Positions 16,651-21,650 of a stretch of DNA of 64,000 nt are shown here, piece after piece (positions within the stretch are counted from its first letter, which is position 1; every line of letters begins with the position of its first letter). Position numbers and translations under genes: made by a program. The stretch spans positions 1-64,000 of the forward strand of contig CAMCTJ010000004.1 in NCBI GenBank assembly GCA_945878405.1, read 5' to 3'. This DNA is from Bdellovibrio sp. ZAP7 (GTDB lineage Bacteria > Bdellovibrionota > FAC87 > UBA2466). Below the pieces are notes generated by a model. The model worked only from the letters and a program-made list of their open reading frames with translations, was not told the DNA's origin and did no database searches.

Positions 16651-17748
16651 CTATCGAAGAAACTCCATCTGGTAGGGTGGCAACTGGAGATCCCAGTTGA
16701 GATCAGTTCTTTGCTGCAGATTAGTTTCATCCCAGATTCTAATCTTTGGCTCAACGGGATTGCCATCAGCGACATAAATCAGCCCCGCCTCTTTATCGCG
16801 AAGAATCTGACGAAAATGATAGCCAGATGAAGACCACAGTGTCCGTAGCCTCAGGCCAGTTTCGAAATCAAACACAATCAGTTCTGTCTGGGGTTTTGAG
16901 ATGATGGCGAGGCATTCTTTTGAACTGATACATTCAAAATCAACGAGATCTCCCCCTAGTTTGTTTTCAGTCGTTAAAAATCCAAGGGATTCTTTTTTCT
17001 CGGGATCGATTATCTCAATCCCTCCATCGAGCTCACTCTGGCTCCCCACCAAACCCGCATCAGCAACTAGCCACTTTCCATCTGGCGAACTCTTGAACTC
17101 AGTCACTGGATTGCTTCCTTTCATATCCAGAACCTCTGCAATCAAATCGGTGTTTGTATCGATTATAACAATCTGAGCCGTTCCTACGGGGGCAAAAGAA
17201 CCGGTTTGATTAAGCTTTTGTAACTGTATCCACAAATGGTTTCCCTTAAGAATCATTCGAGCCGATTCGGGAGTTCCATCAGTATCTGAAAACTGCGACA
17301 GGTTAATCCGTCTGATTATCGTTCCAGTCGCTAGGTTTACTTTTAGCAACTCGGGGATTTGCAAACAGCTCACATAGGTGTTCTCCCCAACGATAACCAT
17401 ATCCTGAGGGTTCGCTCCTACTCCTAAGGAAAACTGCTGGAGAGTTTTACCCGTCTTCCGATCAATTCTTTGAATATTGTCAGCCCCTAAACGGTTGATC
17501 ACAAAAATGTCTGAAGTCTCATCAAATGACTTAACCACCGCGTCCGAGAACACGGGCGAAAAACTCAGCTGCGCTAAACGGTTCTCAACATCAAAAAGAG
17601 CTAAGGCTCCGGTCTGATAGTTCGTGGTAGTGACAGCAAGTGTTTTACCCGATTTCTGAACTTCCAAAATGGGCATTCCCAATCTGAGTCCACATCCGGT
17701 CAGAAAAAAAATGACGCCAAGGTAAATGGTTATAAATCGTAAATCCAT
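16651..17748 (-). CDS. Beta-propeller lipoprotein (YncE/YVTN type)
   Basis: 365 residues. Signal with lipobox LTGC (C19). The mature part has repeated four-strand blades with patterns like SGKTLAVTTTNYQTGALALFD, VIVGENTYVSCLQIPELLKVN and IIDTNTDLIAEVLDM, typical of a seven-bladed YVTN propeller. The start overlaps the end of the TonB-receptor gene by 19 bases. Propeller lipoproteins paired with TonB receptors often bind the same ligand at the surface or periplasm; the ligand is unknown. Confidence 0.82.
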   Translation of the reverse strand: MDLRFITIYLGVIFFLTGCGLRLGMPILEVQKSGKTLAVTTTNYQTGALALFDVENRLAQLSFSPVFSDAVVKSFDETSDIFVINRLGADNIQRIDRKTGKTLQQFSLGVGANPQDMVIVGENTYVSCLQIPELLKVNLATGTIIRRINLSQFSDTDGTPESARMILKGNHLWIQLQKLNQTGSFAPVGTAQIVIIDTNTDLIAEVLDMKGSNPVTEFKSSPDGKWLVADAGLVGSQSELDGGIEIIDPEKKESLGFLTTENKLGGDLVDFECISSKECLAIISKPQTELIVFDFETGLRLRTLWSSSGYHFRQILRDKEAGLIYVADGNPVEPKIRIWDETNLQQRTDLNWDLQLPPYQMEFLR

Positions 17749-19649
17749 GTCACACCTACTCTTCTTCCTGAAGTGGGATACCCATTCACCCCACTGATAT
17801 ACTTTGATACTTCTACTCCCGTCACTGCGGCGCTGGCGAGAGTTAAGTTGAACAAGTTCTGAATATTAAGTTCAAATTGTCCGGCAGCTTTGACTTTAAG
17901 TCTCAGATAAAAGTCGTGTAAGTGGTAAGGAGCTAATTGTTCTTGATTTGCTTTATCTAAATAAGAGGCCGAGAAGAAAGAAGCTCGATATCCCGCTCCC
18001 CAACTTTCTCGGTTTGTTCCCATCTCCCAACGAACACTGAGCGGAAAGCGGTAGGGCAAATCCTTTCCCTTCTCAGCGGCGATAGCAGATTCATTGCGCG
18101 TCCAAAGCCAAGTCATAGAGGGACGACAAAAAAAGCCGGAAGCACTTTCAACTGCCAGTGATAGTTCTTGGCCCAGCCAAGAGGCCATCCCGATATTCTC
18201 AGCCCTTTGAACGTCCGGACCTACTTGTGAAAAAGTAATTAAGTTTTTTGCTCTCGCCCCAAACACTGAGTAAGACAAATAACTCTTTACCGTGCTTGAA
18301 ATAAAAACCGGAGACCATTTCATTCCTAACTCTGCTTTGGTGGCTGTTTCTGATTGAAGGCTAGAATTTGAAACCAATCCCAACTGATTTCCATGAAGCT
18401 CAGAGAGCGAGGGATGCCTAAAGACAGCTCCGCCGAACCCAAACACCCGAACAGCACTTGAGGGAACCATTTCAAAGCCCAACCGAGGTGATGAGTCCCA
18501 TACAGAATCAGTTAAGGTAAGCAAGTAAGCCGGTTTAAGTGTGAATGACTCGCCCAAAGCGATGTGCAGTGAGCCTGAAGCTGGGAGCTCAACCCGCTCA
18601 AATGAAAATTGACGACGGTTTTCACTCGCACCCTCAAACCGGTATTTAGAATAGTTGATTCCTAGAGCGAAAAGACTACGCCACTGGGGCTCTTTCCATT
18701 CTAAAGAGACTCTTGCCCCTCCCGTAGTGTTTAAAGAGGACTCTTGACGAGTTCCTTGAAGTTCATCTTCGCGAAAACGAAAAAAAACGACTCCCTCTCC
18801 CGATAAACTCTCAGTCAGAACAGTGGTCCCTCGAACCGCACTTAAACTATTCCAATCCTGTAACCGATGGCTTTCGGGTTTATTAATGGGTCCAGGTGTT
18901 TCAGCAGTCTGAAAAGAGTTGAGCGAAAACAAATGCACCTTACTTCCGCCATTTTGAAAACGAAAAGAAGGCAGAAGTGAGAGCCGTCGGTAACTATTAT
19001 TTTCTCTCTCTTTCAACTGATCGTCATTTGAATTGAAGGGAGTGGACTGGTTATCGAGGTAAGAAAAGTTTTCCTTCGCTTGCTCGTATTCGAAGTCAAA
19101 ATTAACTGAAGACAAAAGGTTTGCTTGAGAACTTACTCTGAGTAGCCCAAGATTTCCCACCTGAGCCAGTACTTTTCCTCGATTTACTCTCTCTTTTAAA
19201 TGAAGATCGATACCTCCCCCCAAACTATTCGAAAGGAATGCGGCCGGGACTGCTTCAGAGTAGATGTCTACTTCTTGCGGGGCTAACTTCGGAATCAAAG
19301 AAAGATTATCCGAGAGAAACACAGGCTCAGTCAGGGGAATCCCCTCGACGAAAACCAGTGTCTGAGTGGAATCCATACCGCGAAGAGAAAAAGTAGGAGG
19401 AGCAGAACCCGTTAGAGCTGGCATCGCCTGCACGGAGGGACTGGCAACTAACACTTGAGAAAGAGACCGCGAGCTCTCTCCCTCAAGCGAAATCCGCTCT
19501 CCCAAGGACTCTGTCGTGCTCGTTACCAGGGAATCTTCCTCTGGGCGTGTGTCATTTATCGTCACTTCGGGAAGAGAAATGACTTCCGCTGGAGTAGCCC
19601 AGGCCCAGAGGGGAACGGTAATCATTAATATAATCAGGTACTTAGACAT
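17730..19649 (-). CDS. TonB-dependent outer-membrane receptor
   Basis: About 639 residues from the ATG at 19649, which starts right before a clean signal peptide (KYLIILMITVPLWAWA); an in-frame TTG at 19667 is possible. A plug domain follows (about 40-150: SRSLSQVLVASPSVQ, TFSLRGMDSTQTLVFVEGIPL) with a TonB-box-like stretch PEVTIND just after the signal, then about 22 beta strands to the C-terminus, ending in the aromatic-rich VGVTWIYDL. Imports a scarce ligand such as a metal chelate or cobalamin; the ligand is not shown by the sequence. Confidence 0.92.
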   Translation of the reverse strand: MSKYLIILMITVPLWAWATPAEVISLPEVTINDTRPEEDSLVTSTTESLGERISLEGESSRSLSQVLVASPSVQAMPALTGSAPPTFSLRGMDSTQTLVFVEGIPLTEPVFLSDNLSLIPKLAPQEVDIYSEAVPAAFLSNSLGGGIDLHLKERVNRGKVLAQVGNLGLLRVSSQANLLSSVNFDFEYEQAKENFSYLDNQSTPFNSNDDQLKERENNSYRRLSLLPSFRFQNGGSKVHLFSLNSFQTAETPGPINKPESHRLQDWNSLSAVRGTTVLTESLSGEGVVFFRFREDELQGTRQESSLNTTGGARVSLEWKEPQWRSLFALGINYSKYRFEGASENRRQFSFERVELPASGSLHIALGESFTLKPAYLLTLTDSVWDSSPRLGFEMVPSSAVRVFGFGGAVFRHPSLSELHGNQLGLVSNSSLQSETATKAELGMKWSPVFISSTVKSYLSYSVFGARAKNLITFSQVGPDVQRAENIGMASWLGQELSLAVESASGFFCRPSMTWLWTRNESAIAAEKGKDLPYRFPLSVRWEMGTNRESWGAGYRASFFSASYLDKANQEQLAPYHLHDFYLRLKVKAAGQFELNIQNLFNLTLASAAVTGVEVSKYISGVNGYPTSGRRVGVTWIYDL

Positions 19650-19766
19650 CTCAAAAACCAGGCTCAAAAAGCTACTATCCTCTTACGCCAAGGAAATCCC
19701 CCTTTCAATAAATTTTCTAGAAACTGAATGGGATTTTGGGTTATGTTCCCGCCAACGAGGACACCT

Positions 19767-20339
19767 ATGGAAAAAGTACAAATCAGTTTAGAATTTACTC
19801 CCAATCCCAACACTCTCAAATTTGTTGTGAATACCCGCTTCATGGAGCGAGGAACTGCTAATTTCCTCTCTGCTTCACAAGCACAGGGAAAATCGGCTCT
19901 AGCTGAAGGGCTTTTCAAAGTGCCTGGTGTATCCGCTGTTATGATCGGCCCCAATTTCATCACGATTACAAAAGCAGTTGATGGCGACTGGGATGTTGTA
20001 GCTGAACAAGTTCCCCAAACAGTAGAGAAACATCTTGAAGCTGCTTTGCCAGTGTTTTCGCCAGACTATGATCCTGCAGGGCCAGCCACGGTCTCTTCTA
20101 AACCTGAGGATCAGGAAATTGAGAAAAAAATTCGTGAAATTTTAGATAATGAAATTAGACCCGCAGTTGCGATGGATGGCGGAGATATTACTTTTGGGAA
20201 ATATGAGGACGGGGTAGTTTATTTGTCTCTTCAAGGAGCCTGTAGTTCTTGTCCGAGCAGCACAGCAACTTTGAAAATTGGAGTTGAGACCCGAATCAAA
20301 GAACTCATACCTGAAGTTAAAGAAGTTGTTCAGTTCTAA
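19767..20339 (+). CDS. Fe-S cluster carrier, Nfu type
   Basis: 190 residues from the ATG at 19767, chosen over an upstream in-frame ATG because GAGG lies seven bases before it. Residues 1-95 are the Nfu N-terminal domain (EFTPNPNTLKFVVN). Residues 115-190 are the NifU C-terminal domain with C159-x2-C162 (GACSSCPSS), which binds a bridging 4Fe-4S cluster between two protomers. It delivers clusters to apoproteins in the cytoplasm. The last 23 bases overlap the convergent protease gene. Confidence 0.92.
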   Translation: MEKVQISLEFTPNPNTLKFVVNTRFMERGTANFLSASQAQGKSALAEGLFKVPGVSAVMIGPNFITITKAVDGDWDVVAEQVPQTVEKHLEAALPVFSPDYDPAGPATVSSKPEDQEIEKKIREILDNEIRPAVAMDGGDITFGKYEDGVVYLSLQGACSSCPSSTATLKIGVETRIKELIPEVKEVVQF

Positions 20340-21069
20340 AACTGAATCGACCCATTACGAATAAAACAATTAAAAGAATCAAAACAGCTATCAGTCCAGT
20401 TGTCGGAAGCTTGGTTTGCGTCTGATGAACTGAGGCACACCCCAAAGCTCCTCCTAGAACATTTCGGGGATAGAGTTGGGAGATCCCGTCTTGATCATCT
20501 TGAGTCACTAAAAGAAACTCTTTATTCAGTTGAAAATACATGAGGGAATCCGGATCTCCACTATGGCCCAGTCCTAAAACGTGGCCAATTTCATGTCCGA
20601 TGATGAGCTCCACTTCTCCTGGAGCCAATTGAGAGAGTTCCGCAAGAGCGCCCGGTTGGGCATTCAAAACGAGACCTGAGTAGTGAACATACCCCTCCGA
20701 GTTTTCATCAAAATAAGGAACAAATCCCAAAATCGCATTCGCATTCACACTGCCGTAATCACTCAGTTGCTGCGAACACAGAATTAAAGGTACTTGAGTG
20801 GCTGTTTTGGCTCTAAATTGGGCATCACCATCTGTCGCGACTGTGGCGGAACGAACAATTTCTAAATCGGTATTGGGAATCCCATTCCAAGCTCGAATGG
20901 CATTATCGATCCGTTGGTAAAGTTCACTTTCCGGGATTGTACAATGGGTTGGGTTGACATAAAAAGTGAGTTTCTTTTGTTTCCAACCATAGGTATTTGA
21001 TCCCATGTGGGTCCAAGCGTGCACAAAAGCTGAAGTAAAAAGAAAGCAAAGAATAATCCTTTTTTTCAT
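20317..21069 (-). CDS. Secreted metzincin (matrixin-like) metalloprotease with LPTTG-type C-terminal tail
   Basis: 250 residues. Signal peptide 1-18 (IILCFLFTSAFVHA). Zinc motif HEIGHVLGLGH gives H159, E160, H163 and H169, with Met-turn M177 in SLMYF: the M10-like metzincin pattern. The tail after residue 205 reads GGALGCASVHQTQTK, then LPTTG (221-225), a hydrophobic helix (LIAVLILLIVLFVMG) and a basic end (RFSFR). This is the three-part layout of a cell-wall or CTERM sorting signal. Short for a protease, so it may act on a small envelope target. The ATG overlaps the upstream gene's stop. Confidence 0.87.
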   Translation of the reverse strand: MKKRIILCFLFTSAFVHAWTHMGSNTYGWKQKKLTFYVNPTHCTIPESELYQRIDNAIRAWNGIPNTDLEIVRSATVATDGDAQFRAKTATQVPLILCSQQLSDYGSVNANAILGFVPYFDENSEGYVHYSGLVLNAQPGALAELSQLAPGEVELIIGHEIGHVLGLGHSGDPDSLMYFQLNKEFLLVTQDDQDGISQLYPRNVLGGALGCASVHQTQTKLPTTGLIAVLILLIVLFVMGRFSFRTEQLL

Positions 21070-21650
21070 AAATCGATGACCACTTTTCCAAGTCCACGAA
21101 CTCTTCGTTTACTTGCGTTTAAGTACTCTGAGAAAAGAAACCCAACTTGTAATCCCACTCTTTTGCTAAATTTCCACTCCAGACTCAGAGAAGCAGTGGG
21201 TAATACGACTTGAGTCCATCTGGAGGGAGTATAGAAAGTACTCGTCCCAGTTCCATTTCCGAGTGAAACCGCTTCACCTTTTGAGCAAAACATTTCCCAA
21301 AGAAGCCCGTTTCCAAGCCCCAACGAAAGTGGTTTTGAAAGTTGAATGTCTAGGTTCAGGCCAAAATGCGACGTAAAGGCAAGCGTTGTGCCATCAAAGC
21401 CCTTTCTCCAAGGGAGCAAAACAAAAGACTCTGGTCGTAAGGAAAACCGATTAGAAAGCTTCAATGTCTTACTGACCCCTAACAAACCCTGAGTCTCACT
21501 CACTTTCGAAGCAAACCCAGGCGGTGCGCTTAACCTCTGTTCCAAATTACTCACTGAGGCGCCTACGTGAAGCTTCCAACCCGCGGCAAAGAGCGAAGAG
21601 CTGCTAAAAATAAGGATGGAGGCTAGGAAAGAGAGTGAAATATTTTTCAT
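21066..21650 (-). CDS. Small outer-membrane beta-barrel protein
   Basis: 194 residues. Signal peptide 1-23 (SFLASILIFSSSSLFAA). The mature protein alternates hydrophobic and polar residues over about eight strands, with aromatic girdles (FSLRPESFVLLPW, LGLGNGLLWEMF, LSLEWKFSKRVGLQVGFLF), fitting an OmpX/OmpW-size barrel. It ends VVIDL, without the usual terminal Phe. Four-base overlap with the metzincin gene implies co-expression. Specific role unknown. Confidence 0.72.
   Translation of the reverse strand: MKNISLSFLASILIFSSSSLFAAGWKLHVGASVSNLEQRLSAPPGFASKVSETQGLLGVSKTLKLSNRFSLRPESFVLLPWRKGFDGTTLAFTSHFGLNLDIQLSKPLSLGLGNGLLWEMFCSKGEAVSLGNGTGTSTFYTPSRWTQVVLPTASLSLEWKFSKRVGLQVGFLFSEYLNASKRRVRGLGKVVIDL

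Follow-up and report, generated by a model that had tools for sequence, protein, structure and literature searches.

Gene content of the locus

The minus strand of the window (the whole 64,000-nucleotide stretch that was analysed) carries two overlapping genes, which encode a predicted outer-membrane beta-barrel and, immediately downstream, a metzincin-type metalloprotease (Table 1). The protease was identified as a matrixin in a profile search, in which PF00413 scored 54.9 bits against a cut-off of 24, and it contains both the HExxHxxGxxH motif and the Met-turn of this family. Residues H159, E160, H163, H169 and M177 were invariant across 23 aligned homologues, and the solved chains nearest to the metzincin profile were MMP-1 and MMP-8, which cover approximately residues 145-204. 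Homologues were detected in 39 of 59 relatives. The predicted structural model of the protease, built from 7 sequences, reached a mean pLDDT of 61 and was poor in the tail around Cys211.

Table 1. Position of the features described in the window.
Feature	Position	Strand	Basis or remark
Barrel CDS, 194 aa, eight-stranded beta-barrel of the outer membrane (predicted), near-obligate partner located upstream of the metzincin	21066..21650	minus	Locus comparison and predicted model
Barrel loop L3, residues 124-144, KGEAVSLGNGTGTSTFYTPSR, predicted extracellular	21219..21281	minus	Predicted model and conservation
ATGA overlap, 4 bases, barrel stop and metzincin start	21066..21069	minus	Sequence
Metzincin CDS, 250 aa, matrixin family (M10)	20317..21069	minus	Signal-like N-terminal helix and Cys-type C-terminal tail
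Signal-peptide-like N-terminus, residues 1-18	21016..21069	minus	Sequence and aligned start of the conserved domain; boundary inferred
HEIGHVLGLGH, zinc-binding motif, residues 159-169	20563..20595	minus	Sequence and homologue alignment
LGGALGC, residues 205-211; Cys211 invariant (signature G-C-[GAS]-x-[VI])	20437..20457	minus	Homologue alignments
LPTTG, residues 221-225; chance resemblance to the sortase motif, unconserved	20395..20409	minus	Sequence and homologue tails
C-terminal hydrophobic helix, residues 225-239	20353..20397	minus	Tail scan
Short C-terminal tail GRFSFRTEQLL, net charge +1	20320..20352	minus	Sequence and tail scan

An Nfu/NifU-type scaffold gene (19728-20339; PF01106, PF08712) lies convergent with the metzincin gene, the 3' ends of both genes overlapping by 23 bases. 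An Nfu-like neighbour was found at the metzincin in most loci of the same family (f1), and other genes occupy this place in other families. Beyond the Nfu gene, the minus strand encodes a TonB-dependent receptor (17730-19667; PF00593, PF07715).

The barrel and metzincin genes are inherited as a pair

No Pfam match was obtained for the 194-aa barrel protein of the window. Almost every homologous locus has a counterpart of it upstream of the metzincin, and 29 of these counterparts were used to build a search model. Co-occurrence was then scored in 240 panel genomes of the phylum, each at least 90% complete, where full metzincins were those with a best E-value of 1.8e-34 or lower (the next match had 1.9e-25, and the 1e-30 cut was chosen after the scores were known). 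Both genes were present in 113 genomes and neither in 126; the protease was never found alone, and the barrel was found alone once, as a fragment at a contig end (G012). Metzincin matches under the full-protease cut (1.9e-25 to 2.9e-21) were detected in three genomes that carry no barrel (G175, G128, and G125). Twenty-four of the 113 pair genomes were identified as having contributed sequences to the barrel model; 89 remain without them, of which at most four more may also be sources.

The pair is nearly universal in the family of the analysed genome (f1), and co-occurrence is therefore uninformative there. In other families, genomes with both genes and with neither numbered, respectively, 10 and 43 (f6), 70 and 7 (f9), 6 and 25 (f12), 4 and 15 (f8), and 3 and 8 (f13), with no single-gene genome. 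This repeated joint absence within several families is a stronger point than Fisher's p, which ignores phylogeny.

The two genes also keep their arrangement. Among the barrels listed, 145 of 150 are followed directly by a metzincin on the same strand, the five exceptions being found in G220, G206, G080 and G012, together with a weak second match in the analysed genome, and 31 genomes carry at least two pairs. Barrel and metzincin trees agree (r=0.87 over 43 pairs), and shuffling of partners within 9 multi-pair genomes gave a maximum r of 0.864 in 5000 trials. As shuffled values always fell under 0.87, paralogous pairs stay with their own partners. Thus, barrel and metzincin genes share their inheritance, their duplications and their absences, and there is a very high probability that their products work together.

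A scan of named genomes recovered at least 62 metzincin loci. Among those listed, six combine a Bdellovibrionota-type title (Oligoflexaceae, Bdellovibrionales, Bacteriovoracaceae twice, Oligoflexia, and Bdellovibrionaceae) with a Cys tail, and the barrel was found in all six; it was found in none of the other 56 metzincin loci listed. A locus titled Oligoflexia (L139) encodes an untailed metzincin and has no barrel. Also among the loci listed, two from Myxococcales (L133 and L142) passed the tail test with a Cys, and two assigned to Deltaproteobacteria or Proteobacteria (L155 and L175) have MYXO-like ends by eye.

Other tailed metzincins were observed in the phylum. The Cys-tailed metzincin of G030 (L022:482-1872; GGGCGTI, helix and basic end) has no barrel, and a different 189-aa secreted protein is encoded upstream with a 4-base overlap. 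In G047, a 558-aa metzincin with FCGV, a helix and an RRRIR tail (L030:535-2211, minus strand) lies near a gene for a 262-aa protein that ends in a helix of its own and RRK, with no Cys (L030:2286-3074, minus strand). The latter two genes are perhaps another tailed metzincin module of the phylum.

Predicted fold of the barrel and conservation of loop L3

The predicted barrel model, obtained from 7 sequences with a mean pLDDT of 75, consists of eight long strands and a hairpin. Both Foldseek and VIA-align 2 grouped it with NspA, OmpA, OmpW, Ail and OmpX, with a Foldseek E-value of 3.6e-7 for NspA and VIA-align 2 Z-scores of 15.5-15.8 for OmpA/OmpW/NspA-like folds (149-152 residues, rmsd 2.9-3.4). 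The Pfam family OMP_b-brl (PF13505) was matched by 4 of the 29 barrel members, at best with 6.6e-6, the member in the window giving no match, and a search of the PDB by sequence returned no solved structure related to the barrel.

The best conserved element is loop L3, which joins strands 5 and 6 of the model: its mean information over 61 sequences was 2.10 bits, compared with 0.75-1.62 in the other barrel elements. Asn132, Gly133, Phe139 and Pro142 are nearly fixed within its consensus, LNNGxxTxxFxxP. The usual orientation of small eight-stranded barrels places a loop of this type outside the cell, and L3 is thus predicted, from this orientation and the model, to be extracellular. Since an eight-stranded barrel is too narrow for an export pore, the protein was read as a holder, regulator or substrate.

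A conserved Cys in the metzincin tail

The original prediction described the C-terminus of the metzincin as a sortase signal preceded by GG..GC. The elements it listed are there: LPTTG, encoded by the minus-strand bases CTTCCGACAACTGGA, is followed by the hydrophobic helix LIAVLILLIVLFVM and preceded by LGGALGC, and the tail announced as basic does close the protein, although with a net charge of a mere +1. What is conserved is another matter. The two same-genus homologues (58-61% identity) read RVPWAAL and TVPSEGL at the position of LPTTG, and, of 67 distinct tails from homologues, 2 contain LPxTG; three more sequences had been dropped from this set (two with an unplaceable tail and one without Cys). 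LPTTG is thus, as judged from these tails, a coincidence that plays no part in sorting. The sortase-like tail is a false lead, situated 10 residues from the real conserved signal and beside a more unusual gene pair.

That signal is the Cys of GGALGC, which was invariant in all 23 aligned homologues. Cys211 lies just past the MMP-alignable catalytic part, which ends at about residues 200-204, and ahead of the C-terminal helix. The usual form of the signature in the 67 tails is G/S-C-[G/A/S]-x-[V/I]. The Cys tail is kept in 49 of the 50 loci that were read, some of which belong to the same genomes as other counts; in the exception (L204), the C-terminus runs on differently. Fourteen of 29 homologues contain just three Cys, namely, two invariant ones in the catalytic domain plus that of the tail, which gives a hint on the question of a Cys211 disulfide.

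The succession of an invariant Cys, a helix and a basic end reproduces the arrangement of MYXO-CTERM tails and, judging by sequence, the metzincin tail has the layout of Cys-type sorting signals such as MYXO-CTERM and JDVT-CTERM. Synerg-CTERM, also present in NCBIfam titles, and CGP-CTERM are the names of other signals of the Cys type. The CTERM idea raised for this diderm protein is supported in kind by the conserved GC signature, transmembrane helix and basic tail.

No second tailed protein was found in the same genome among 772 ORFs in 851,794 of 2,236,690 bases (38%), with a tail scan that recovers 18 of the 23 known tails at its stricter cut, and the MYXO-CTERM model TIGR03901 had no match at E<=1 in this genome. 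The absence of both a sortase-like enzyme and any other protein with the tail had been proposed to indicate simply a membrane anchor. Within the 38% sample, the metzincin is indeed alone; nonetheless, its tail is kept across the phylum, and "just an anchor" therefore does not follow. A 239-aa protein from another contig of this genome (L107:6235-6954, contig C8) has a helix at its C-terminus followed by a strongly basic tail (MRAKKKTQKSKKA), with no Cys.

A putative surface-protease unit and the alternatives

The near inseparability of barrel and protease across the phylum suggests an undescribed surface-protease unit. We give even chances to a two-gene module of Bdellovibrionota whose barrel holds its partner matrixin, once processed at the Cys tail, at the outer membrane. 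The matrixin would cross the inner membrane by Sec and would be retained there by its C-terminal helix. By analogy with MYXO-CTERM/JDVT-CTERM signals, it would next be modified at the GC signature, probably lipidated and probably cut, and would then reach the outer membrane, where the barrel would hold it through the conserved LNNGxxTxxFxxP loop, resulting in a surface-displayed protease. The type II secretin GspD (T2SS), which scored above cut-off in the analysed genome, the sole one checked, is in line with this route. Docking to the barrel at the outer surface, taken together with Cys-linked processing of the tail, might equally prove right or wrong. Held more tentatively is the view that a dedicated barrel displays one matrixin via its extracellular loop after Cys-tail processing by an enzyme other than a sortase, exosortase or rhombosortase, and not necessarily a CPBP myxosortase; this would represent an undescribed two-component system and a further Cys-type signal.

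The tail could instead be a plain inner-membrane anchor whose helix is never removed, so that the protease would face the periplasm, where the barrel or other proteins of the envelope would be its targets during biogenesis. A helix and basic residues are enough for an anchor, the tight pairing is also compatible with a partner that serves the enzyme as its dedicated substrate or in a chaperone-like role, and no CPBP or exosortase is common to all carriers (for sortases, this statement concerns the analysed genome only). However, a bare anchor needs no invariant GC-[GAS]-x-[VI] lying, in most members, about 8-21 residues ahead of the helix. One member (L013/L194) keeps the Cys despite a degenerate helix, and the most conserved element of the barrel is located on the predicted outer side. 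This explanation was considered rather unlikely.

Cleavage of a lipidated GC tail by a myxosortase-type enzyme, as MrtX does in Myxococcus, with a barrel incidental to processing, appears unlikely. The genome encodes a single CPBP protease, a member of the myxosortase superfamily (229 aa; contig C5, 144471-145157) that contains EExxFR and HxxxN motifs and has orthologues in 13 of the 14 genomes of the family. Its NCBIfam matches were led by ABC_perm_CPBP, MrtJ and Mrt_core, the last two being its best Cys-signal models, and the metzincin itself weakly matches the "myxosortase-dependent metalloprotease" model (NF041905, MXAN_2677/2678; 34 bits, with the equivalog cut-off of 250 not reached). 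Against this, all matches of the CPBP protein are far under cut-off (Mrt scores of 30.6 of 75 and 28.9 of 100), and no cut-off for a myxosortase (MrtX/C/P) was reached. The CPBP gene and the metzincin lie on different contigs (C5 and C4), so that there is no adjacent MrtJ-type CPBP.

The distribution of CPBP points in the same direction. PF02517 was found in 144 of the 240 panel genomes, with CPBP and full metzincin together in 81, metzincin only in 32, CPBP only in 63 and neither in 64, and no association between them was observed within families f6, f8, f9, f12 and f13. The 32 CPBP-negative genomes among the 113 protease carriers include G103, a one-contig genome rated 100% complete, and a myxosortase is therefore not the general answer. 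Furthermore, 24 loci were read from CPBP-negative genomes, and all but L204 have the Cys tail (23 of 24). The tail is thus kept in CPBP-negative carriers, and CPBP is therefore not required in general, although it may act on the metzincin tail in the analysed genome.

CPBP had been regarded as a candidate general partner in a first panel, where it was present in all 24 genomes with a tail read on a full protease; this candidate failed in the 240-genome panel. The tailed G030 of the first panel (88% complete) was without CPBP. No convincing tailed protein was found beside CPBP genes among the loci searched, in which a 154-aa ORF encoding a Cys and a helix, and no basic end, occurred twice (L038/L053). 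Directly downstream of the CPBP gene of the analysed genome, on the same strand, lies a gene for a 62-aa pilin-like protein with a class III signal peptide (L001:1272-1460, contig C5; PF04021 at 23.8 bits, cut-off 23.7).

Processing by an exosortase/archaeosortase or by a rhombosortase-like rhomboid, for which the GG ahead of the Cys and the presence of two rhomboids in the genome could be invoked, is very improbable. The search recommended for such enzymes returned no match to TIGR04178 in this genome (15 of 240 in the panel), and the rhomboids scored 33.4 and 16.9 bits against a rhombosortase (TIGR03902) cut-off of 84, the better one being closer to GlpG than to rhombosortase; a GlpG-type rhomboid may act on the metzincin tail. 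Finally, anchoring to peptidoglycan or a pilus by a sortase can practically be dismissed, even though LPTTG, the helix and the short basic tail follow one another as in a sortase signal, given the loss of LPTTG in both congeners, its rarity among homologous tails and the zero matches to PF04203 in the analysed genome (95.75% complete), with 3 of 14 control genomes positive.

Few systems are known for keeping single secreted enzymes on a diderm surface. A protease so rarely separated from its own barrel, with the pair present in 113 of the 240 genomes sampled, points to receptor-style anchoring or to a device for activity control. The conservation of the Cys-type tail where no CPBP was found suggests that the lipidating or cutting enzyme may still await discovery, and near-complete CPBP-negative carriers offer a place to search for it. 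Predatory bacteria belong to Bdellovibrionota, and their surface proteases are of interest.

Comparison with known systems

A literature search found no description of the barrel-matrixin pair nor, for Bdellovibrionota, of a Cys-type tail, subscription journals being thinly covered; the accessible part of PMC12724312 mentions CTERM once, in a reference. Taken singly, both proteins resemble known families. The metzincin has the same PF00413 catalytic domain as matrix metalloproteinases and other matrixins (M10), but differs from matrix metalloproteinases in being bacterial and in having a signal-like helix and a Cys-type membrane tail. The barrel shares its predicted fold with small eight-stranded outer-membrane proteins (the OmpA barrel, OmpW, NspA, Ail, and OmpX; Z up to 15.8), but it has no sequence relative in the PDB, a PF13505 match in few members, a loop motif of its own and a near-obligate protease neighbour.

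Among sorting systems, GlyGly-CTERM/rhombosortase (Vibrio VesB), as far as the accessible description goes, likewise retains at the surface a secreted protease whose C-terminal helix can be cleaved off, and the window metzincin can be likened to it by layout. In contrast, the signature found here has an invariant Cys, and the rhomboids of the genome are GlpG-like.

According to the accessible part of the study by Guo, Haft and Wall (2025; PMC11980579), MYXO-CTERM, with its myxosortase MrtX, is the tested example of Cys-type sorting signals, and tailed proteins number dozens per myxobacterial genome. The window metzincin likewise has a short invariant-Cys signature, a C-terminal helix and a basic end; both cases involve surface hydrolases of diderms, the surface site being inferred here, and matrixins are named as myxosortase-dependent in the NF041905 title. 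The differences from what is described there are the lack of a TIGR03901 match and of a second tailed protein in the sampled 38% of the genome, the many metzincin carriers without CPBP, and a partner that is an outer-membrane barrel. In the same source, JDVT-CTERM/MrtJ is presented as a two-gene pair whose second gene encodes a CPBP protease. The window pair similarly joins a Cys signature and one dedicated tailed protein in a two-gene unit; its second gene, however, encodes the barrel, and the only CPBP protease of the genome is encoded on another contig.
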